From Euryarchaeota archaeon UBA175 (GTDB lineage: Archaea; Thermoplasmatota; Poseidoniia; Poseidoniales; Thalassarchaeaceae), in assembly GCA_002497895.1 (NCBI GenBank), contig DAFD01000004.1:1-18720 (forward strand): a stretch of 18,720 nucleotides of DNA, read 5' to 3'. Position 1 is the stretch's first letter. Every line of letters begins with the position of its first letter. A program made the position numbers and the translations under genes. Under the pieces are notes generated by a model. The model did no database searches. It saw only the letters and a program-made list of their open reading frames with translations, and was not told the origin of the DNA. Of the stretch, positions 1 through 18,664 are shown one piece after another.

Positions 1-484
1 CGGAGCAGCCATCATGGCGAACAATCTCAAGTAATTTCATGATTGGAACCGGATTGAAGAAGTGCATCCCGATAACCCTGTCAGCACAGGTAGTGGCCTC
101 TGCGATTGTACTAATTGGGAGTCCCGAAGTATTCGTCGCAAGTATAGCGTGGGCCGGAGCCTTCGATACGAGATCACGGAAGATGCTCTGCTTCAATTCC
201 ATAATCTCAGGAACAGCCTCGATAACCAAGTCAGCTCCTGAAACGGCTTCAGCCATATCCGCGCATGCGCTTAGATTTCCTTTCCACTCTGCCTTCTGCT
301 CAGCAGTGGTCTTGCCACGAGCAATTCCCTTGTCCCAGAAGGAGTCGACAGCAGCCATCCCATTCGCTAATCCTTCAGGAAAAGCATCGAACAACCGAGT
401 CTCCCAACCTGTTTGGGCGCAGACTTGAGCAATTCCAGCGCCCATCGTACCGGCGCCGATTACGGCGACGGTACGAATGTCCAT
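1..484 (-). CDS. 3-hydroxyacyl-CoA dehydrogenase, N-terminal part (cut by window edge)
   Basis: The first 161 codons of a gene that runs off the left edge. The enzyme oxidises 3-hydroxyacyl-CoA to 3-ketoacyl-CoA with NAD+ in the cytoplasm, as in beta-oxidation and the late steps of phenylacetate degradation (PaaH family). Residues 5-17 form an NAD-binding Rossmann turn (VAVIGAGTMGAG). ATNTS (116-120) carries the expected catalytic serine, and HFFNPVP (141-147) is the family's HFFNP signature. The ATG at 484 lies 4 bases after the stop of the upstream 186-residue gene, so the two are almost certainly co-transcribed and perhaps translationally coupled. The C-terminal domain is outside the window, so I cannot tell whether it is a single-domain enzyme or a fusion. 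Family assignment is firm. The substrate is inferred only from the neighbouring BoxB-like oxygenase and hydratase. Confidence 0.93.
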   Translation of the reverse strand, partial: MDIRTVAVIGAGTMGAGIAQVCAQTGWETRLFDAFPEGLANGMAAVDSFWDKGIARGKTTAEQKAEWKGNLSACADMAEAVSGADLVIEAVPEIMELKQSIFRDLVSKAPAHAILATNTSGLPISTIAEATTCADRVIGMHFFNPVPIMKLLEIVRHDGCS

Positions 485-488
485 CGTT

Positions 489-1049
489 TCACTCCCTACC
501 ATATGCTGCTAGTGCAGCCTGAAACAGTCGCTGCCGAGGAACATCATGCTCCAAGAAGCAAGTGAAAGGAGCCACATCTTTGAGCAATTCAATCGCCGAG
601 ACATAAGCGCCGTAAATGAAGGGGTCAGCGACCTCAGTCGCTGGAATTTCAATTCCTAACTTAGCCAATCCCTTCCGCGTATCTTCGTCCCAAATCGCAT
701 AGGTATGTTGAGTGAAGTGGAGGTAGGAGGAGAGCCTGACTATGTCGGATCGAGCATTGGGAGTGAAGGAGTCAAGCAGCAGTGTGTCAGGGTAACGAAT
801 CGCATACATCGCGAGTTTCACTTCGCGCGTAGTCTCTTCTCGCCAATCGCGCTTGTCTAATCCCATCCATTCATCGACCATATCGAGCATGCCATTGGTG
901 TAAGGTCGATGCACTTTGTAGAGTAGCACTTCGTAGCCTTCAGCGTCTTGATCGGCCGAATGGTGGTGCTCGTGGAAGAGGTCGGTTAATCTGTCAAAAA
1001 ATGGCTTGCAGCGTTCCTTATCGAAGGCAAGAAGTGATAGATGTTGCAT
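489..1049 (-). CDS. Unrecognised 186-residue protein in the CoA-ester catabolism cluster
   Basis: I do not recognise this family. The open frame extends upstream to 1178, but that part overlaps the BoxB-like gene. The ATG at 1049 has a near-perfect ribosome site (GAGGTGATC) just before it, so I start there, giving 186 residues. It is soluble-looking, acidic and mostly helical, with no signal peptide or membrane segment. A histidine cluster HEHHH (26-30), close to an acidic stretch, could bind metal, but that is a guess. The gene sits 17 bases after the oxygenase stop and 4 bases before the dehydrogenase start. The tight packing suggests a role tied to that pathway, for example an accessory subunit or chaperone for the di-iron enzyme. 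Nothing in the sequence proves this. Confidence 0.8.
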   Translation of the reverse strand: MQHLSLLAFDKERCKPFFDRLTDLFHEHHHSADQDAEGYEVLLYKVHRPYTNGMLDMVDEWMGLDKRDWREETTREVKLAMYAIRYPDTLLLDSFTPNARSDIVRLSSYLHFTQHTYAIWDEDTRKGLAKLGIEIPATEVADPFIYGAYVSAIELLKDVAPFTCFLEHDVPRQRLFQAALAAYGRE

Positions 1050-1050
1050 G

Positions 1051-1060
1051 AGATCACCTC
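1051..1060 (-). promoter_or_regulatory. Strong ribosome binding site fixing the start at 1049
   Basis: On the minus strand this reads GAGGTGATCT, an almost complete match to the complement of an archaeal 16S rRNA 3' tail, one base before the ATG at 1049. It lies in the 17-base gap after the BoxB-like stop. It is the reason to reject the longer overlapping reading frame. Confidence 0.8.
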
Positions 1061-1066
1061 TGAGGC

Positions 1067-2209
1067 TCAGTCGCCCTTCCATTCGCGGTATTGAATCCAT
1101 TCTTCTTGCATGTATTCGTTCATCAGGCGTTCTTCGTCTGCATCGGTGGGAAGAACGTCGTCGAGGTAAGCCTGCCAATCATCGTCACTTCCTTCGAAGT
1201 CGTCGCCTTCAAGTGTGTAACGCTCTGCAGAGTATTTTCCGATTCCTCGATTGAATTTATCAGACGGAATAAACAACTCTGGCTCACCTTCCTTTCGAGC
1301 TTGACTAATTCTGCGCATCTCATCGCGAAGTTCCTGGAAATAGAGCTCACGGCTCGCTTCGTTGAGGTGAGCGCGGTCTGCATCATCGCTGGACTCGCGC
1401 TCATCATAGCGCCCCTTGATTCCGTAAACATAGGCCCACTGGGCGCTTGTCGAGTCGTCAGTTCCAAACAGGTCGAGACCAGTACTGACCCACTTGTTGA
1501 CGTATTTCTGGAGAAGAGCGCAGGGGATTACTCCCTGCTTGACGACTCTGCGTAGTCCATTGGCTCCGGTGCCGAGATGGAAGGATTCCTCCTTCAGCAT
1601 AGGCCCCATCGAGGCAGCGAGTGGCTGGAAAGAAGATGTGCTGAGCATCTTCAGTTGGTACTTACCGTCTCGGTCGATAAAGTGAGTGAAGCAGAAGAAG
1701 TCCAACCAGTGGTCAATCGGTGCGTTGAACGAACCTAGGATGCGAGTTCCTTCCTGCGCATTGCGCTCGAGCAACTTTGCTGCCTCGCGCACTCCGTGCT
1801 CGCCGAAGTAAGTGCAGAGAAGGTAAGCCATCTGCCATCCGTGGCGCTGTTCTTCGCACATGATTCGCAGGGCTGACTTGCGGTCATACTCTGTCGGGGC
1901 GGTCGCCAACAGGTGGTTCTGCTGCTCGACGCTGGCGAATTCTGTATCGCCCTGCACGCTGACCATCGAGATGATTGCATCACGGATGTTTTGCTGTGGA
2001 ATCTGCATTCGTCGCTGCCACTTGGGCATACCTTGGAAATCACCGAATTCGATCTGTGAACCAGCGGTGTCCCAGTCGAACTTGATGTCGAATCGGTAAT
2101 CACCCAGCCACGACGGGTCAAATCCGATTCGTGTCTGCCAATCGCTGAAATCTTGTATCCACGCCTCGAAGTTCGGGGAGTAGTCCTGTACGATCTCTGT
2201 ATCTGTCAT
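1067..2209 (-). CDS. BoxB/PaaA-like class I di-iron CoA-ester oxygenase (epoxidase)
   Basis: A 380-residue ferritin-fold oxygenase most like BoxB, the benzoyl-CoA 2,3-epoxidase oxygenase subunit, and more distantly PaaA of the phenylacetyl-CoA epoxidase. Such enzymes insert oxygen into an aromatic ring carried as a CoA thioester, using a di-iron centre and electrons from a separate reductase. The ligand pattern is complete: E90, E120-x2-H123, D179 (or D181), E208-x2-H211. Other BoxB-like stretches are FDPSWLGDYRFD (30-41) and FFCFTHFIDRDGKYQL (171-186). It is shorter than typical BoxB as I recall it (about 470) and longer than PaaA (about 310-330). I prefer the ATG at 2209. An upstream GTG (2248) and ATG (2245) in the same frame overlap an inverted repeat and would add 13 or 12 residues; neither start has a clear ribosome site. 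It follows the hydratase and precedes the 186-residue gene. The exact substrate is unknown. Confidence 0.82.
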   Translation of the reverse strand: MTDTEIVQDYSPNFEAWIQDFSDWQTRIGFDPSWLGDYRFDIKFDWDTAGSQIEFGDFQGMPKWQRRMQIPQQNIRDAIISMVSVQGDTEFASVEQQNHLLATAPTEYDRKSALRIMCEEQRHGWQMAYLLCTYFGEHGVREAAKLLERNAQEGTRILGSFNAPIDHWLDFFCFTHFIDRDGKYQLKMLSTSSFQPLAASMGPMLKEESFHLGTGANGLRRVVKQGVIPCALLQKYVNKWVSTGLDLFGTDDSTSAQWAYVYGIKGRYDERESSDDADRAHLNEASRELYFQELRDEMRRISQARKEGEPELFIPSDKFNRGIGKYSAERYTLEGDDFEGSDDDWQAYLDDVLPTDADEERLMNEYMQEEWIQYREWKGD

Positions 2210-2246
2210 GAGGTGGGGCAGAAGGGACCTGTATTTCAACCACATC

Positions 2247-2267
2247 ACCGAAGACGTAGTCTTCGGT
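2247..2267 (-). repeat. Perfect inverted repeat with TAC loop between hydratase and oxygenase genes
   Basis: Nine-base arms (ACCGAAGAC on the minus strand and its exact complement) flank a TAC loop in the 83-base gap between the hydratase stop and the preferred oxygenase start. It overlaps possible upstream starts of the oxygenase gene. It could be an mRNA hairpin acting as a partial terminator, a stability element or a processing site. Similar TAC-loop repeats occur at 3158-3170, 17309-17325 and 18695-18713. Confidence 0.75.
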
Positions 2268-2292
2268 CGCCCGAAATTTTTGGATGATAAGT

Positions 2293-3150
2293 TCAGTTAC
2301 CTTCGAAGCGAGGGGTGCGGCGCTCGACGTAAGCGGCGATTCCTTCCTTCGCGTCAGCGCTGTTGAACAGAGCCGCTTGCAACTCGCGCTCAAGCGCAAG
2401 GTGATACTCGAAAGGCATCTCAGGTCCTGATTGGACTGAGCGCTTGATGTTACCAACTGCCATAGTAGCCTTGTATGGTAAGCAGAACTGGCTGGCGTAG
2501 TCGAGAATATCCTGCCGGAAATCGTCTAGTGATCCATCCCAGACGTCGTTGAAGAGGTCGATTTCCTTAGCCTTCTCGAAGGCCATCAGCTCGCCGCTGA
2601 CCATGTATTCGAGAGCACGCGACTTGCCGATGAGGCGAGTTAGTCGCGCAGTGCCGCCTGTTCCTGCAAGCACACCGAGGTTAATTTCAGGAAGTCCACA
2701 CTTGCCTGCATCCTTGCGAGCGATGCGAATGTCGCAGGCCATTGCGATCTCAAGTCCGCCGCCGACAGCGTGACCATTGATTGCACAAATGACGAGCTTC
2801 GGAGTCTGCTCGAGGCGGCTCAGAGTCTCGTTAGCGTGAAGGCAGAAATTGTACTTGAATCCCGGCGTGACCGAGTTCAACATCTGGATGCTTGCACCGG
2901 CAGAGAAGAACTTGTGTCCATTGCCGGTGAAGACGATGACGCTGACGTCGTCATCAAAGCGAGCCTTGACGACAGCGGTATCGATGTCTCGCATCATTTC
3001 GTGTGTGTATGTGTTCGGGCCGACTTCGTCGCCCTCAAGTGGAGCGCCCGCCGAATTCGAAGCAAGTTCGATGATGGCGATTCCGTTTTCTGTGACTCCG
3101 TAGTTTACCAAGCGGTTTGGCATTGGTTCGAGTTCAGGCCATGAGGTCAT
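2293..3150 (-). CDS. Enoyl-CoA hydratase/isomerase (crotonase family)
   Basis: A 285-residue crotonase that adds water to, or isomerises, the double bond of an enoyl-CoA. Both oxyanion-hole segments are present (FSAGASI 82-88 and GHAVGGG 126-132). Both glutamates used by hydratases are in place: E134 in GGGLE and E155 in LPEINLGV. An active hydratase is therefore more likely than a lyase or isomerase variant. AGTGGTARLTRLIGKSRA (162-179) is typical of the family. I start at the ATG at 3150. The frame stays open to 3207 but would have to run through the small inverted repeat at 3158-3170. No ribosome site is obvious. With the di-iron oxygenase and the 3-hydroxyacyl-CoA dehydrogenase downstream it forms an epoxidation/hydration/oxidation series like the paa or box pathways. 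The precise step it serves is inferred. Confidence 0.92.
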   Translation of the reverse strand: MTSWPELEPMPNRLVNYGVTENGIAIIELASNSAGAPLEGDEVGPNTYTHEMMRDIDTAVVKARFDDDVSVIVFTGNGHKFFSAGASIQMLNSVTPGFKYNFCLHANETLSRLEQTPKLVICAINGHAVGGGLEIAMACDIRIARKDAGKCGLPEINLGVLAGTGGTARLTRLIGKSRALEYMVSGELMAFEKAKEIDLFNDVWDGSLDDFRQDILDYASQFCLPYKATMAVGNIKRSVQSGPEMPFEYHLALERELQAALFNSADAKEGIAAYVERRTPRFEGN

Positions 3151-3213: not shown

Positions 3214-4437
3214 TCAAGCGTCGTTTTCAGAGAAGGAAGTATGACCTCCTCCTCGCTGGTGGGACTTCCACTGAACCCCTATTTCTTCGGCCCGTGGGCT
3301 TGCTTCCCAGACATCTCTTGAGAGAGCTTTTCGGAACGGCATGCGAGAGACCATTCGACCGTCTGCGAGTTGTTTTCGGCGGAGCATGCCGATTTTGACG
3401 ATGGGCCATAATGCTCGGCGAAATAGTCCAGGTTGGTAGACCCATTTCATGAAGGCGAGCCCATCTCCTTTGCGAGCTTGGTCACGCATCCAATAGCGTG
3501 CGACCATCTTGAATCCACGATCACCAATTCGGTTCATCAAAAATCGGTTTATAGCGCTCGCTCGAATAAGTGGAATCAAACGATTGCGGACTTGTTTCTC
3601 GTAATCATTCGAGCCCACAATCGAGTTGGCGGCCATCACTCCACTAGTGATTGCATAACGCATCCCAAAGCCCCACATGAAGTCCTGCAAACCGCCGGCT
3701 TCACCGACATAATGCCTGTCTTCGTGGATGTAGCGATCGGGTAGTGAGAAGTCACCTTTTCCGCCGACGCGTTTTATCGGCTGGCGGTTGAGTTCGTAGT
3801 GTTCCTCATACCATGCGATTGTCTCGTTGAGGTATCTGCTGGATTTCTTTTGCTGACGCCAGAGGCAGGTGCAGATGAGACCTATTCCATCAATGATTAT
3901 CAGGTAGGAATAGGCTCCAGGAGCGAGTTTGTCGTTGAGTTGGAAAGCGACGTGGTTGGGGTGGTCGGTATGAAAAATCTCTCCGAAGGCAACAGCACTG
4001 GATTCCTTTGGCCCAGCAGCGATTATGTCGCATTCACTGGGGTCCTTGCGCGTCTCATAGTGGATATTTGCACCAGCAGCAAGGGCCATTCGCTTGAATC
4101 CTTGATCGATGCAATGTTCGTCGGTTCCACGCTCGACGACTCTGAATGCAACTCCATTGGTTACTGGATTACTGATTTCGTCATCTGGGTGGATGAGGTC
4201 GATGATGCTGAATGCATCCGACTTGAATTCGTCAGGATCCAAACCCCATCCACGCATCTCGTCGAAGAAGTCGGTATCACTGGTCCAATTCTCAATACCT
4301 TGGAAATCGCCGTCGAAGCGCGCGCCTGAGTCCTTACGAATCTCGTGCACATGGACCTCGTACCCTTGATGCGCAAGTATGGTCGCAGCCGAGAGCCCCG
4401 AAAGTCCAGCCCCGAGGATGTCAATGCGGCGGGTCAC
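3214..4437 (-). CDS. FAD-dependent oxidoreductase, geranylgeranyl-reductase-like
   Basis: A 407-residue flavoprotein. The N-terminal FAD-binding turn (ILGAGLSGLSAA, 7-18) and acidic residue E32 match the group that includes geranylgeranyl reductases. The second FAD motif, VGEAGGLQDFMWGFG (244-258), corresponds to the GDAAG...GEGI segment of that family. Geranylgeranyl reductases saturate double bonds in archaeal lipid chains. Other members act on aromatic or CoA-linked substrates, so the reaction cannot be fixed here. The start is taken as the GTG at 4437 because the FAD motif begins right after it. The longer frame (to 4803) would overlap divergent moaE and its extra residues look random. 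The gene lies 63 bases before the hydratase on the same strand, so it may belong to the CoA-ester operon or simply precede it. Confidence 0.78.
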   Translation of the reverse strand: MTRRIDILGAGLSGLSAATILAHQGYEVHVHEIRKDSGARFDGDFQGIENWTSDTDFFDEMRGWGLDPDEFKSDAFSIIDLIHPDDEISNPVTNGVAFRVVERGTDEHCIDQGFKRMALAAGANIHYETRKDPSECDIIAAGPKESSAVAFGEIFHTDHPNHVAFQLNDKLAPGAYSYLIIIDGIGLICTCLWRQQKKSSRYLNETIAWYEEHYELNRQPIKRVGGKGDFSLPDRYIHEDRHYVGEAGGLQDFMWGFGMRYAITSGVMAANSIVGSNDYEKQVRNRLIPLIRASAINRFLMNRIGDRGFKMVARYWMRDQARKGDGLAFMKWVYQPGLFRRALWPIVKIGMLRRKQLADGRMVSRMPFRKALSRDVWEASPRAEEIGVQWKSHQRGGGHTSFSENDA

Positions 4438-4956: not shown

Positions 4957-6294
4957 TCATCGCATCGAAGCGGCGATGTCGTTTACAGCATGAGGCACAT
5001 TTGAGGCGATTCCCTCGACCATCATCCAGCCGTGACCCTTGACTCCGTCGCCAACACAGCGGATGCCTTCAACTCCGACATCCATCGGCAGTTCGGCACC
5101 TTGCGGTGCGCGATTACACGGCCAGTTCCGATGATATGTATGGACGCAGATTTCCTCGCCATGATCGGCGAGCCAAGGGATTGACTCGTAGAGGTCCTCG
5201 CGCCCTTTGCTAATCTCGGATTTGACCGAGGCGTCGGGTACGAATTGGTGAGTGATCATCAGATGCTTTCCTTCAGGCGCGAGGGTCGGGTCGGAGAAGG
5301 TTGGAATGACAAAGCCTCCGACCCGCTCAAGATTAGGCAACATTGTCACCCCGCTACTACGTACCGGAATGTCATCGTCGAGCGCGAAGCAGAACCCGAT
5401 TCCACCCACTGCTTGAGTGTTTTTGACCTGCTCTCGCACGCTGTCGGCCACTTCGAAATCGTCTGATAGCGCCTTCAGCAAATTTGGGTGGCCGCCATTG
5501 TGAATGATTGAATCCGCGCCGACCCAACTTGCTTCATCCCGGCCACGTCGTCGCACTCCGACGCAGAATCGGTGCTCTTTCGTCGATTCCTCCGCAGTTC
5601 CCGGAAGAATCTCAGTCACTTCATGACTCAATTTGACGCGCGCACCATTCTCCCGAAGGTCCGCGCGCAATCCATCGATTACACCCTTACATCCTCCCTT
5701 CGGAATGTGCGGCCGATCTGACCAGAAGGAATTCTGCAATATCCGAACCACAGTCGAGGCCGGCATCTGATCGAAGCGCAGACTCACAGCAAAATTCGAG
5801 AAAGCATCGAGAAAATCGATGAACTCGTCGCTGAACCTCCTCTGAAGCCAAGTCCGTCCATCTACGGTTTCGTCTCCCCATGCTTGCTTGGCACCCTTGG
5901 CAAGAAGTCTTGGAAGATTGATTGCATCCTTTGCAGAGAACCACGGCAATAACCCATAAGCGGAGTTTGCGGACTGAAAATTTCCATCTTTTATTCGACA
6001 CGCAAAGTGGCTGGTAGGTAGGAATTCTACTCCATGACGACCGAGGTCTAACCCACCTTTCGAACGAGGGCCAAGTATCAGGTCTGAGAACGGTCCTTTG
6101 CGTCCGTGCGGAATCATGTGGACCGCACCAGTGGGAATCTGATATCCGTCGTGATCATGTTGTGTGAATCGACCACCTGCAAAGGACATCCGCTCGTAAA
6201 CAGTGACGTCGAAGTCACCCGTTTGGGCAAGCCGAGCAGCGGAGCCAAGCCCACCGACTCCAGCTCCGACAACGAGTGCCTTCGGCTTTCCCAT
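4957..6294 (-). CDS. Phytoene-desaturase-like (CrtI family) FAD oxidoreductase
   Basis: A 445-residue NAD(P)/FAD-dependent amine-oxidase-fold protein. It has an N-terminal dinucleotide motif (VVGAGVGGLGSAARL, 8-22), the YERMSFAGGRF block (33-43) of CrtI/polyprenoid oxidoreductases, and a C-terminal FAD segment (IRCVGDGVKGHGWMMVEGIA). Family members desaturate, isomerise or saturate carotenoid and other isoprenoid chains. A strong ribosome site, GGTGATC (6306-6300 on the minus strand), sits just before the ATG at 6294. It overlaps the end of the ferredoxin gene's message, 14 bases after that stop. Tight pairing with a 2[4Fe-4S] ferredoxin suggests a ferredoxin-dependent redox reaction, possibly hydrogenation of an isoprenoid lipid, but the direction and substrate are inference. 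It converges with moaE, 17 bases apart. Confidence 0.82.
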   Translation of the reverse strand: MGKPKALVVGAGVGGLGSAARLAQTGDFDVTVYERMSFAGGRFTQHDHDGYQIPTGAVHMIPHGRKGPFSDLILGPRSKGGLDLGRHGVEFLPTSHFACRIKDGNFQSANSAYGLLPWFSAKDAINLPRLLAKGAKQAWGDETVDGRTWLQRRFSDEFIDFLDAFSNFAVSLRFDQMPASTVVRILQNSFWSDRPHIPKGGCKGVIDGLRADLRENGARVKLSHEVTEILPGTAEESTKEHRFCVGVRRRGRDEASWVGADSIIHNGGHPNLLKALSDDFEVADSVREQVKNTQAVGGIGFCFALDDDIPVRSSGVTMLPNLERVGGFVIPTFSDPTLAPEGKHLMITHQFVPDASVKSEISKGREDLYESIPWLADHGEEICVHTYHRNWPCNRAPQGAELPMDVGVEGIRCVGDGVKGHGWMMVEGIASNVPHAVNDIAASMR

Positions 6295-6308
6295 TCATAG
6301 ATCACCAC

Positions 6309-6569
6309 TCAGGCGTAGACCAGAGCCCCAGTTGGGCACCAGAGAAGACAGCGAAGGCAATCAGTGCAATTTTTTTCAATGACCTCGCATAATCCTTCGA
6401 CGATGAGGGCATCGTCTTGGCAAGCCATTAGACAATAGGAACATCCGACGCACAAGTCGTTGATGACCTGCAGTTTCTTGCCCTCTTCACTTGGCCTGTC
6501 ATGGTCGACCCCCGACTCGAGTTGTGGAACTACCCCTGGAGTAGCCTTGTCGCGGAATGCCTCTGCCAC
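6309..6569 (-). CDS. Small 2[4Fe-4S] ferredoxin
   Basis: An 86-residue electron carrier with two classic cluster motifs: C40-x2-C43-x2-C46-x3-C50 and C68-x2-C71-x2-C74-x3-C78. The residue after the fourth cysteine is proline in the second motif as usual, but glutamine (Q51) in the first. About 35 residues precede the first cluster, longer than in minimal bacterial ferredoxins and without any recognisable domain. The start is a GTG at 6569; no in-frame ATG exists before the first cluster. An A/T-rich element (AAATACTAG on the minus strand, around 6590-6598) could be its TATA box, which would imply a very short or absent leader. It is the first gene of a two-gene unit with the CrtI-like flavoprotein, to which it probably donates or from which it accepts electrons. 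Confidence 0.93.
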   Translation of the reverse strand: MAEAFRDKATPGVVPQLESGVDHDRPSEEGKKLQVINDLCVGCSYCLMACQDDALIVEGLCEVIEKNCTDCLRCLLWCPTGALVYA

Positions 6570-14833: not shown

Positions 14834-16072
14834 TCAGAGATGGCTCTGGAGTCGGTAACGGCAGCGCGCTGCCTCAGCGATTAGTGGATCTGCATCACTC
14901 ATTGTAGTCACCGCATCGATAGTCTTTGGAATCGCCGAGTTGACTTGCTTACTGCGTCCACCTCGACCCTTGCTTACGTTTCGAGCCATAATCATCCCTA
15001 GGGTGTCCAGTTCGTTGAGCAGGGTCGAGATTCGTCGAGGTGTAAGTGGTTCGACATTGACATTGAGACAAGCGTCGGAATAGGTTCGAAACACTTCTCC
15101 GGTGGAAATGTTACGCAAACCATTGTCTTCATTGATGCGGATTGCAAAGAGCACGAGCTTCTGGTGCAGTGGTAGAGTCTGTAGCACTGGCGTGACCTGA
15201 TCATGCTCAAGTTGCGACTGCGCCAGACGGACGTGTCTTGGGTCAACCTTCGTCTGTGATCGCTGTTCTGCCTTCTGTACTGAGATTCGTAGAAGGTCGA
15301 GTGCGCGGCGTGCGTCACCGTGCTCTTGGGCTGCGAGCGCAGCGCACAATTGGATTACTCCATTGTCAAGGACGTCCTCACGTAGACCAGTACTCGCTCG
15401 CGCTGTGAGAATATCCGTAATCTCGGTCGCGCCATACGGATGGAAGATTAGGTCCTCCTGACCGAGTCGACCCGAAACTCTCGGGTCGAGCAATTGTGTG
15501 AAATGCAAGTCATTACTGATTCCAATGATGCAGCAACGCGAGCGCTTGAGAATTGTGTTAAGGCTCGTCAGATTGTACAGCAGATTGTCACCTGCGCGCT
15601 CCACGAGGTTATCGATCTCGTCCAGTACGATGATGTGGACTCCGCCAGCGCGGTCCATCCTCTCGACGAGGTGTTCGAGAACTCGATCGGTCGGCCAACC
15701 TGTGAATGGTATAGGCACATCTCCGCGTTGAGCCAAGCGACTCGCCAGAGTCTGCACTACTCGATAGCGCGTGTCGACTTGCCGACAATTAATCTCGTAC
15801 GTACGCACGGACTTCCCGAGTTCAGTCCCCTTCTCACGCAATTGGCCGAGAACGAATCTGGTTACCACAGTCTTACCGCTTCCAGGTACACCGTAGAGAA
15901 GCATGTTCGAGGGAATGTGCCCGTTGAGAGCGTCGACGAGATTGCGAACTAACGCCTCAACTTCTCTATCGCGGTGAGGGAGCGTGGTAGGTTCGAAAGC
16001 GTGGTCGAAGGCCTTTCTATCGAGGAAGAGGGAATCTTGTCCCAAAATCTTCTCGAAAATATTGCCGTCCAT
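14834..16072 (-). CDS. Orc1/Cdc6 replication initiator
   Basis: A 412-residue archaeal initiator of the Orc1/Cdc6 AAA+ family, which binds origin repeats and helps load the MCM helicase. The AAA+ core shows Walker A GVPGSGKT (61-68), Walker B IIVLDEID (147-154), sensor 1 ISND (185-188), an arginine region DPRVSGRLGQ (196-205), and sensor 2 in GDARRALDLLR. The C-terminal third is the winged-helix DNA-binding domain, containing RISTLLNELDTLGMI. Length is normal. The ATG at 16072 is at the end of a 405-base gene-free gap and has no strong ribosome site, so a short leader is likely. Archaeal initiator genes usually sit beside the origin they bind, which makes the upstream gap of interest. Confidence 0.96.
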   Translation of the reverse strand: MDGNIFEKILGQDSLFLDRKAFDHAFEPTTLPHRDREVEALVRNLVDALNGHIPSNMLLYGVPGSGKTVVTRFVLGQLREKGTELGKSVRTYEINCRQVDTRYRVVQTLASRLAQRGDVPIPFTGWPTDRVLEHLVERMDRAGGVHIIVLDEIDNLVERAGDNLLYNLTSLNTILKRSRCCIIGISNDLHFTQLLDPRVSGRLGQEDLIFHPYGATEITDILTARASTGLREDVLDNGVIQLCAALAAQEHGDARRALDLLRISVQKAEQRSQTKVDPRHVRLAQSQLEHDQVTPVLQTLPLHQKLVLFAIRINEDNGLRNISTGEVFRTYSDACLNVNVEPLTPRRISTLLNELDTLGMIMARNVSKGRGGRSKQVNSAIPKTIDAVTTMSDADPLIAEAARCRYRLQSHL

Positions 16073-17383: not shown

Positions 17384-18664
17384 TTGTCCGATTGGAGTGC
17401 AAAGAATCCGTACGGCTCAAAGCTGACGGAGAATTACATCCTGAATAGTGAAGGTTCTCGTAAGGAGACTCGCCACATTGTCTTCGACTTGGGAGATTCA
17501 GGCCTTGAATACAAGGCTGGAGATGCTCTCGGAATTATTCCACACTGTCCACCAGAACTCGTCGATGATTTGTTGACGACAGCCAACTTTTCGGGTGACG
17601 AGATGGTCGAGACTCACCTCGGCGAAGCCACACTGAGAGAGGCCTTGGCCAACCACCTCGAAATCCACCGCGTCTCAAAGAAGTGGATTGTGAACCTCGG
17701 TAACCGACTTTCCTCCGACGAAGGACCGGTGGAAATCCGAATTGCTCGCCGGCACAGAGTTTCGACTGAAGACGGAGCACTACTTGTCGATTGGTCTGGC
17801 TCAGGTGAGGGGGAAGATGTACCGACTGGCTACGAGGAAATTGGTATTGCTTGTGATCCTGCTGAGGCTCTCTGGCGCGAATTGACCGAAAATGCTGACT
17901 CGATGGAGGATTACATGTGGTCACGAGATTACATCGACGCACTGGGAGACTTCGGTCATATCGGATTCACAGCTCAACAACTCGTCGATGGAATGGACCG
18001 GCTCAAGCCGCGTCTATACTCGATTGCAAGTAGCCCCGATCATGAGCCGGGAACAGTCCATTTGACGGTTGGAATTGTCCGCTATTCACACCACGGTCGT
18101 GACCGTGCTGGTCTTTGCACAGGATTCCTTTCCGACTACTGCGATGTTGGTGAGACTGAGATTGGAGTTTTCATGTCGCCGACTCGTTCATTCATTCTAC
18201 CCGAGGACGGTGACACGGATTGCATAATGGTCGGTCCAGGAACTGGAATCGCGCCCTTCCGTGCCTATCTCCAGCAGCGAGATATCAACGGCGACAAGGG
18301 TCGCAATTGGCTCTTCTTCGGCGACCGAACCGAGGCGGGAGAGTACTACTACCGCGAAGAGATGGCTGATTGGAAAGAGCGCGGAGTCCTCAACCGCCAC
18401 GACCTCGCTTGGAGCCGTGACGGTGACGAGAAGGTATACGTCCAGCATCTAATGGCAAAGCATGGTGAAGAAATCTGGAATTGGATTGAAGGTGGAGCTA
18501 ACTTCTACGTTTGTGGCGATAAGAATTACATGGCCAAGGATGTCCATTCTACACTAATCGAGATTTGTGCTGAACATGGCGGCATGTCCGCTGATGAGGC
18601 CAAGGAATTCGTTGAAGTTGGAATGATGAAGACCGATAAGAGATATCTGCGTGATGTCTATTGA
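17384..18664 (+). CDS. CysJ/cytochrome P450 reductase-like NADPH flavoreductase without flavodoxin domain
   Basis: A 426-residue diflavin-reductase-type protein holding the FAD, connecting and NADP domains, but not the N-terminal FMN flavodoxin domain of full CysJ. Signatures are KAGDALGIIPHCPPELV (44-60), RLYSIASSP (210-218, FAD), GLCTGFLS (243-250), GPGTGIAPFRAYL (284-296, NADP), FFGDR (311-315) and the typical C-terminal RYLRDVY. It would move electrons from NADPH through FAD to a partner such as a ferredoxin, a flavodoxin, or a sulfite reductase. The reductase partner of BoxB oxygenases (BoxA) has a comparable FAD/NADPH part, so a link to the oxygenase at 1067-2209 is possible but unproven. 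The start is a TTG at 17384, with GGTGA five bases upstream; no in-frame ATG or GTG fits. Confidence 0.9.
   Translation: MSDWSAKNPYGSKLTENYILNSEGSRKETRHIVFDLGDSGLEYKAGDALGIIPHCPPELVDDLLTTANFSGDEMVETHLGEATLREALANHLEIHRVSKKWIVNLGNRLSSDEGPVEIRIARRHRVSTEDGALLVDWSGSGEGEDVPTGYEEIGIACDPAEALWRELTENADSMEDYMWSRDYIDALGDFGHIGFTAQQLVDGMDRLKPRLYSIASSPDHEPGTVHLTVGIVRYSHHGRDRAGLCTGFLSDYCDVGETEIGVFMSPTRSFILPEDGDTDCIMVGPGTGIAPFRAYLQQRDINGDKGRNWLFFGDRTEAGEYYYREEMADWKERGVLNRHDLAWSRDGDEKVYVQHLMAKHGEEIWNWIEGGANFYVCGDKNYMAKDVHSTLIEICAEHGGMSADEAKEFVEVGMMKTDKRYLRDVY

Follow-up and report, generated by a model that had tools for sequence, protein, structure and literature searches.

Gene content and conservation of the locus

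We analyzed an 18,720-nucleotide stretch of DNA (hereafter, the window; positions 1 to 18,720 of contig DAFD01000004.1, assembly GCA_002497895.1) that belongs to a Poseidoniales archaeon (Marine Group IIb, MGIIb) and encodes, close to its first position, a BoxB-clade di-iron oxygenase along with a crotonase, a small helical protein and a 3-hydroxyacyl-CoA dehydrogenase. All these genes lie on the minus strand and, in the order of transcription, code for an FAD-dependent oxidoreductase with a weak match to the geranylgeranyl-reductase (GGR) superfamily (3214..4437), a single-domain crotonase (2293..3150; PF00378, 2.5e-42), the oxygenase of 380 amino acids (aa) (1067..2209), a 186-aa all-helical protein of no known family, denoted U187 (open reading frame (ORF) at 489..1049), and the N-terminal NAD domain of the dehydrogenase (1..484, cut by the window end). 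The oxygenase coordinates are those of the ATG start; an extension of the ORF to a GTG start would reach 2248. An initial annotation, made from the sequence alone, had placed the locus in an archaeal setting, which is borne out and which an Orc1/Cdc6 gene at 14834-16072 fits; it had also given the exact gaps between the crotonase, oxygenase, U187 and dehydrogenase genes (83, 17 and 4 bases), leaving the 186-aa member of these four genes unnamed. The downstream 3-hydroxyacyl-CoA dehydrogenase that it named is confirmed by matches to PF02737 (1.9e-53) and to the NCBIfam 3-hydroxyacyl-CoA dehydrogenase family (3.3e-50). The full-length dehydrogenase gene is present in locus L001 ('Candidatus Thalassarchaeaceae archaeon', contig JAQXEV010000038.1, 11718-12617), with an oxygenase 97% identical to that of the window, and matches PRK09260 with 332 bits, under the cut-off of 429. 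The GGR-like flavoprotein gene (TIGR02032, 29 bits, with a cut-off of 158.8; NAD_binding_8), for which comparison with the structure database found no informative solved relative, is probably the first gene of the operon.

The locus was compared with the best 80 of 142 encoded relatives, and the counts below include only loci with enough flank. U187 directly follows the oxygenase in 78/78 loci, and the dehydrogenase is found within 2 kb of the oxygenase in all 78. The crotonase gene directly precedes the oxygenase gene in 74 of the 78 loci, is 7-9 kb away in three and was not found in one. The GGR-like flavoprotein is encoded on the same strand, up to 3 kb upstream of the oxygenase, in 71/77 loci, and still adjoins the crotonase in those relatives with 58-63% oxygenase identity that show both genes. 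Nucleotide changes compared with the relatives fall mostly at third codon positions (for example, 38/17/181 compared with L005). Family matches, conserved gene order and the third-codon bias together confirm that the four-gene set is not due to chance. A more loosely linked pair, an aldehyde dehydrogenase and a second, PaaG-like crotonase (CROT2), both occur about 10 kb or less downstream in only 31/64 loci. Some loci show further variation: a shared-gene insertion of ~7-9 kb separates the crotonase from the oxygenase in L029, L048 and L061 (and, by gene order, in L004), and the relatives of 58-63% identity whose dehydrogenase is visible (L112-L118) have an additional gene of ~306-315 aa after U187 and before the dehydrogenase. 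In L114, this gene matches metabolite transporters, under the cut-off. Upstream of the oxygenase in L112-L118 there is often a helix-turn-helix-like regulator, as judged by eye.

The oxygenase belongs to the BoxB clade

The oxygenase matches the NCBIfam BoxB model (TIGR03225; 4.6e-64) and Pfam PF05138 (7.1e-13). When the 380-aa protein is aligned with BoxB, all six iron ligands are present (E90, E120, H123, D179, E208 and H211), in agreement with the complete E/ExxH/D/ExxH set noticed initially. The structural passages of PMC5489048 list, together with the BoxB iron ligands, the residues that orient the benzoyl group, namely Q116, T119, S123, F193, F203, F206 and T210. In the window oxygenase, six of these seven (Q116, T119, S123, F193, F203 and F206, in BoxB numbering) are retained, and Q116, T119, S123, F193 and F203 are retained in 17/17 long archaeal rows of the alignment. 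The rows of MGIIa and of the group labelled int carry F or Y at 206 and V, with one M, at 210; in the int row L124, G replaces the ligand E120. The four PaaA rows have H, S, G, F, I/T, I and V at the seven positions and thus share F193 alone with the six residues retained here.

A tree of 37 rows, rooted at the midpoint and with its long branches flagged, unites the long archaeal rows with three bacterial BoxB at 100/99 support; PaaA, PaaC, the PaaA-like proteins of haloarchaea and a shorter archaeal type are all outside this group. The BoxB-like identity proposed in the initial annotation is therefore upheld: the tree puts the protein on the BoxB side, not on the PaaA side, and a position outside BoxB/PaaA did not arise. 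Among proteins with solved structures, the closest by sequence is BoxB (3per, 9.3e-48), followed by Sulfolobus SSO1313 (4mud, 2e-21) and PaaA (1e-5). The top match of the predicted fold is again BoxB (3q1g, E 7e-14, TM 0.71 on the query), compared with a TM of 0.44-0.49 for PaaA, so that structure prediction, with a model of moderate quality, agrees with the sequence comparison. All this points to an enzyme of the BoxB clade, although not a proven benzoyl-CoA epoxidase. BoxB (PDB 3PM5, 3Q1G) is the best match in both sequence and fold, and shares the iron ligands and six of the seven benzoyl-orienting residues; the archaeal protein differs in length (380 vs ~475 aa), is 37-38% identical to two bacterial BoxB rows, and is paired with U187.

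U187, a constant companion of the long oxygenase

To define the distribution of the module, 389 Thermoplasmatota genomes were surveyed; an oxygenase match at E<=0.001 was obtained in 146. These were sorted by hand into 122 genomes with the long-type oxygenase (74-97%, 58-63% or 51-56% identity, along with G042, G117 and G370, whose genes are partial), 18 with a short type (37-40% identity) and 6 with weak matches; G370 was counted as long-type because its fragment matches residues 288-374, a region that the short type lacks. U187 is encoded in 119 of the 389 genomes, all of them among the 122 long-type ones; the other 267, which include the 18 short-type genomes, all lack it (Fisher's p 6e-98, kinship ignored). 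The gene is directly downstream of the oxygenase in 118 of the 119 genomes, the exception being G082, where it is on another contig. In the three long-type genomes without U187, the oxygenase is at a contig end: the G042 contig has 3837 bases and its oxygenase gene extends to 3835; the G207 gene is in the same place as that of L029, whose contig stops 2 bases past the match; and in G303, with a contig of 3287 bases, the minus-strand oxygenase gene runs from base 94. U187 is, thus, an obligate companion of the long oxygenase, which makes the 'single-subunit' epoxidase of the initial annotation doubtful.

No Pfam or NCBIfam family matched U187; searches with 39 rows gave only scattered weak hits, the best being RNR_Alpha (2.8e-4, three rows) and CpcE (0.0028, one row). 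The predicted structure is confident and helical, with a weak likeness to HhH-GPD glycosylases: the top structural matches are HhH-GPD/DUF2419-like, and the best among the listed Foldseek matches is an 8-oxoguanine glycosylase (E 2.0). The position of U187 that, by motif likeness, presumably corresponds to the catalytic Asp of glycosylases (121) holds D in 21/39 rows and is not invariant, so that U187 may differ from HhH-GPD glycosylases and DUF2419 in this respect; it has no sequence match to them. A PaaC-like ferritin bundle was also considered and was rejected, with no PaaC among the listed Foldseek matches. Most likely, U187 is a bound subunit, a chaperone, or a metallation or regulatory factor. 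The U187 match holds one stop codon in four genomes (TGA in G343, G374 and G378; TAA in G186), for which assembly error, gene end or decay are candidate causes.

The short-type oxygenases (L125-L129) are ~275-295 aa long by their likely starts, and a related crotonase adjoins them in four of the five loci (L125-L128). A hotdog-thioesterase-like ORF, judged by eye, is near some of them.

The crotonase groups with the catalytic domain of BoxC

The crotonase, initially noted as active-looking, retains both catalytic glutamates (132 and 153, fragment numbering). In a phmmer search against solved structures, the best match is 2PPY from Geobacillus (218 bits), compared with 69.6 bits for BoxC (2W3P). 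We extended the analysis to related genomes (n=21; n=13 for benzoate-CoA ligase) and 14 control genomes; the window's own genome is outside these sets, and the completeness of the related genomes is not given, so that absences among them are soft, yet recurring. In 19 of the 21 related genomes, the best match of the BoxC model is a crotonase on the same contig, no more than 14 kb from the oxygenase; in the other two, G018 and G048, the match lies on a different contig, yet falls inside the same crotonase clade. The cut-off of TIGR03222, a model of BoxC with two crotonase domains (712 bits), is not reached by these single-domain proteins (64.8-98.6 bits for the best in each of the 21 genomes); the true BoxC of L131 scores 839 bits.

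A 55-row crotonase tree (midpoint root) is split, with 100/99 support, into groups of 27 and 28 rows. The group of 27 unites crotonases from long- and short-oxygenase loci with BoxC N-domains, haloarchaeal and Thermus proteins, one from Persicobacter and 2PPY, whereas PaaF, PaaG, FadB, FadJ, CaiD and others are on the opposite side. The signature FC[LK][HF]xxE[TA] is present in 22/55 rows, namely 14 long-type and 4 short-type archaeal crotonases, 2PPY and 3 BoxC, and in none of the remaining 33, among them the three haloarchaeal, the Thermus and the Persicobacter members of the same group. The window crotonase thus shares with BoxC (PDB 2W3P) the group of the N-terminal catalytic domain, the FC..xxET signature, the two glutamates and a gene position beside a BoxB-type gene, and differs in having no second crotonase domain. 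The initial remark that BoxC was not in view is accordingly half wrong: the second BoxC domain is missing, but a crotonase from the group of the catalytic domain, with its signature, is there. According to passages of PMC4498308, the active center of BoxC is in the N-terminal domain only, and BoxC co-purifies with BoxB; for these reasons, a one-domain crotonase partner of the oxygenase is plausible.

In haloarchaea and Thermus, too, related crotonases adjoin clusters with a PaaA-like oxygenase (L134, L137, L141 and L142), and so likewise stand beside a PF05138-type enzyme. These clusters differ in carrying PaaC-like subunits and, in haloarchaea, PaaB-like ones as well; in addition, the oxygenase of the haloarchaea branches elsewhere in the tree. 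CROT2, like PaaG, lacks both glutamates; for three CROT2 proteins, the top profile was PRK05981 or 'oxepin-CoA hydrolase, alternative type'; PaaG scored only slightly lower, and no score reached its cut-off.

Other candidate pathway genes

Thiolase is found over the cut-off in 21/21 related genomes. The initial annotation had advised looking left of the window for thiolase, CoA ligase and aldehyde dehydrogenase genes; of the latter two, aldehyde dehydrogenase accompanies CROT2 in the 31 loci mentioned above, and phenylacetate- and benzoate-CoA ligase were not found over the cut-offs in related genomes. A supply of arylacetyl-CoA via IorA was considered and discarded (over the cut-off in 0/21 genomes and 2/14 controls), leaving other 2-oxoacid dehydrogenases as possible sources. 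The FNR half of a CysJ-like protein matches BoxA in 13/21 related genomes; the copy in the window (17384-18664) scores 76 bits and is a possible electron donor. This CysJ-like flavoprotein reductase has FAD and NAD domains and no flavodoxin domain match. Elsewhere in the window (4957-6569), a CrtI-like FAD protein adjoins an 86-aa two-cluster ferredoxin; of the 80 related loci, no more than 14-16 have genes that fit this pair by size and place.

Proposed function and alternatives

The conserved pocket, the kinship of the crotonase and the presence of the dehydrogenase suggest a ring-CoA epoxidase combined with a BoxC-like crotonase and beta-oxidation, that is, a compact archaeal relative of the Box system with U187 as its obligate companion. 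We assign this reading a probability of about 0.58. Under this scheme, the oxygenase would take a ring-bearing acyl-CoA, activate O2 at the E/ExxH/D/ExxH site and epoxidize the ring with one oxygen atom; the adjoining single-domain crotonase would hydrate or open the product; and the hydroxyacyl-CoA dehydrogenase, with thiolases of the genome, would complete the chain by beta-oxidation. The PaaG-like crotonase and the aldehyde dehydrogenase, whose linkage is confined to part of the lineage, may join the pathway, and U187 would serve the oxygenase. We infer the epoxidation, the ring substrate, the order of the steps and the role of U187. The initial proposal that this archaeon may degrade an aromatic or other ring acyl-CoA aerobically is supported in part: the CoA-ester enzymes in the neighborhood fit it, and aromatic catabolism as such is no more than a possibility.

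Several observations weigh against the proposed scheme. The oxygenase scores 217 bits with the BoxB equivalog TIGR03225, under the curated cut-off of 499, for which reason we do not file it as BoxB itself; T210 of BoxB is I in the window and the other MGIIb rows and V or M in the other long archaeal rows; and the structure model is moderate (pLDDT 74.9; 44.6-74.9 across five models). The top profile of the crotonase is generic (enoyl-CoA hydratase PRK07658, 175 bits), compared with ~80 bits for the BoxC profile in close relatives. BoxC joins the archaeal crotonases with weak support (80/56), and the approximately unbiased (AU) test gives p of 0.23 for archaeal crotonases with BoxC and 0.064 when the haloarchaeal ones are added, so that the closer clade is neither rejected nor shown. 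Furthermore, 5/27 rows of the group that holds BoxC lack the signature, and its Persicobacter member has an aldehyde dehydrogenase but no oxygenase match within an 8.7-kb stretch. Three components of aromatic pathways were not found over the cut-offs in the related genomes: BoxA (0/21; none of the 14 controls passes either), phenylacetate-CoA ligase (PaaK; 0/21, with 1/14 controls) and benzoate-CoA ligase (0/13, the best match reaching 186 of 375 bits, with 1/14 controls).

The foremost competing explanation, which we consider rather unlikely, is that the oxygenase hydroxylates or epoxidizes a non-aromatic acyl-CoA (fatty, branched, isoprenoid or cyclic) within core lipid or beta-oxidation metabolism. 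The crotonase and dehydrogenase would then belong to standard beta-oxidation, and the isoprenoid or fatty chain would also be the substrate of the GGR-like flavoprotein. Conservation of the module in small genomes, the GGR-superfamily neighbor, the missing ligases, the generic crotonase scores and the replacement of T210 are all compatible with such a role, as is the fatty acid degradation with which passages of PMC6461757 credit Marine Group II (MGII). It is harder to reconcile with the five pocket residues retained in all the long archaeal rows and with a crotonase that sides with BoxC and other oxygenase-linked crotonases rather than with FadB, FadJ or PaaF.

A true benzoate pathway, in which the oxygenase would act as a benzoyl-CoA 2,3-epoxidase and form the product of bacterial BoxB, is improbable. 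It would agree with the clade, with the six benzoyl-orienting residues and with the JGI label of relatives, 'benzoyl-CoA 2,3-dioxygenase component B', but not with the score under the BoxB cut-off or the change of T210, and the full bacterial Box pathway is rejected given that BoxA, the two-domain BoxC and benzoate-CoA ligase were all not found over the cut-offs in related genomes. We give similarly little credence to U187 being an unrelated housekeeping protein, such as a DNA or nucleoside glycosylase, that merely resides in the same operon: the HhH-GPD/DUF2419-like structural matches speak for it, set against the variable presumed catalytic position and the strict pairing with the long oxygenase.

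A PaaA-type phenylacetyl-CoA epoxidase with one catalytic subunit and U187 in place of PaaC, which NCBI labels such as 'phenylacetate-CoA oxygenase subunit PaaI' and the CROT2-aldehyde dehydrogenase pair would favor, is very improbable in light of the PaaA pocket residues being absent, the position in the tree and the lack of PaaC among the listed matches of U187. Membership in PaaABCE, with which the oxygenase shares PF05138 and the ligand set, is rejected in view of the separate clade, the different pocket residues and the lack of PaaB, which the initial annotation had not seen either (0/21 related genomes, with 3/14 controls positive).

Relation to earlier work and implications

Automatic database names of the relatives include 'benzoyl-CoA 2,3-dioxygenase component B' and 'Phenylacetic acid catabolic protein'. 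Neither the module nor U187 is described in the searched parts of the open-access literature, including PMC9239135, PMC6461757, PMC6336850, PMC6864105, PMC9723583, PMC13186573, PMC9535955 and PMC8166890, and the term-searched text of the MGII papers contains no passage on aromatic degradation. In the sections of PMC13186573 on archaea, PAL-associated pathways are assigned to Halobacteria only. The Poseidoniales passages of two hydrocarbon surveys (PMC8166890, PMC9535955) attribute to some of these genomes alkane (alkB), xylene (xylM) or naphthalene genes, or steps below catechol, and do not name the four-gene set; because they credit other hydrocarbon genes, an aromatic capacity of Poseidoniales has, in these passages, already been proposed on other grounds. 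On our best reading, these archaea have a new form of the Box-type epoxidase that comes with an obligate partner of no known family.

If this reading is correct, aerobic opening of ring acyl-CoAs would be conserved among uncultured archaea that are very abundant in the ocean. More tentatively, ring-containing acyl-CoAs in sunlit seawater could then have a large, unrecognized sink in the archaea that carry the module. A testable question raised by the strict pairing with U187 is why an archaeal Box-type oxygenase would need a helical partner, unlike bacterial BoxB, which is described in passages of PMC4498308 as needing no structural subunit.

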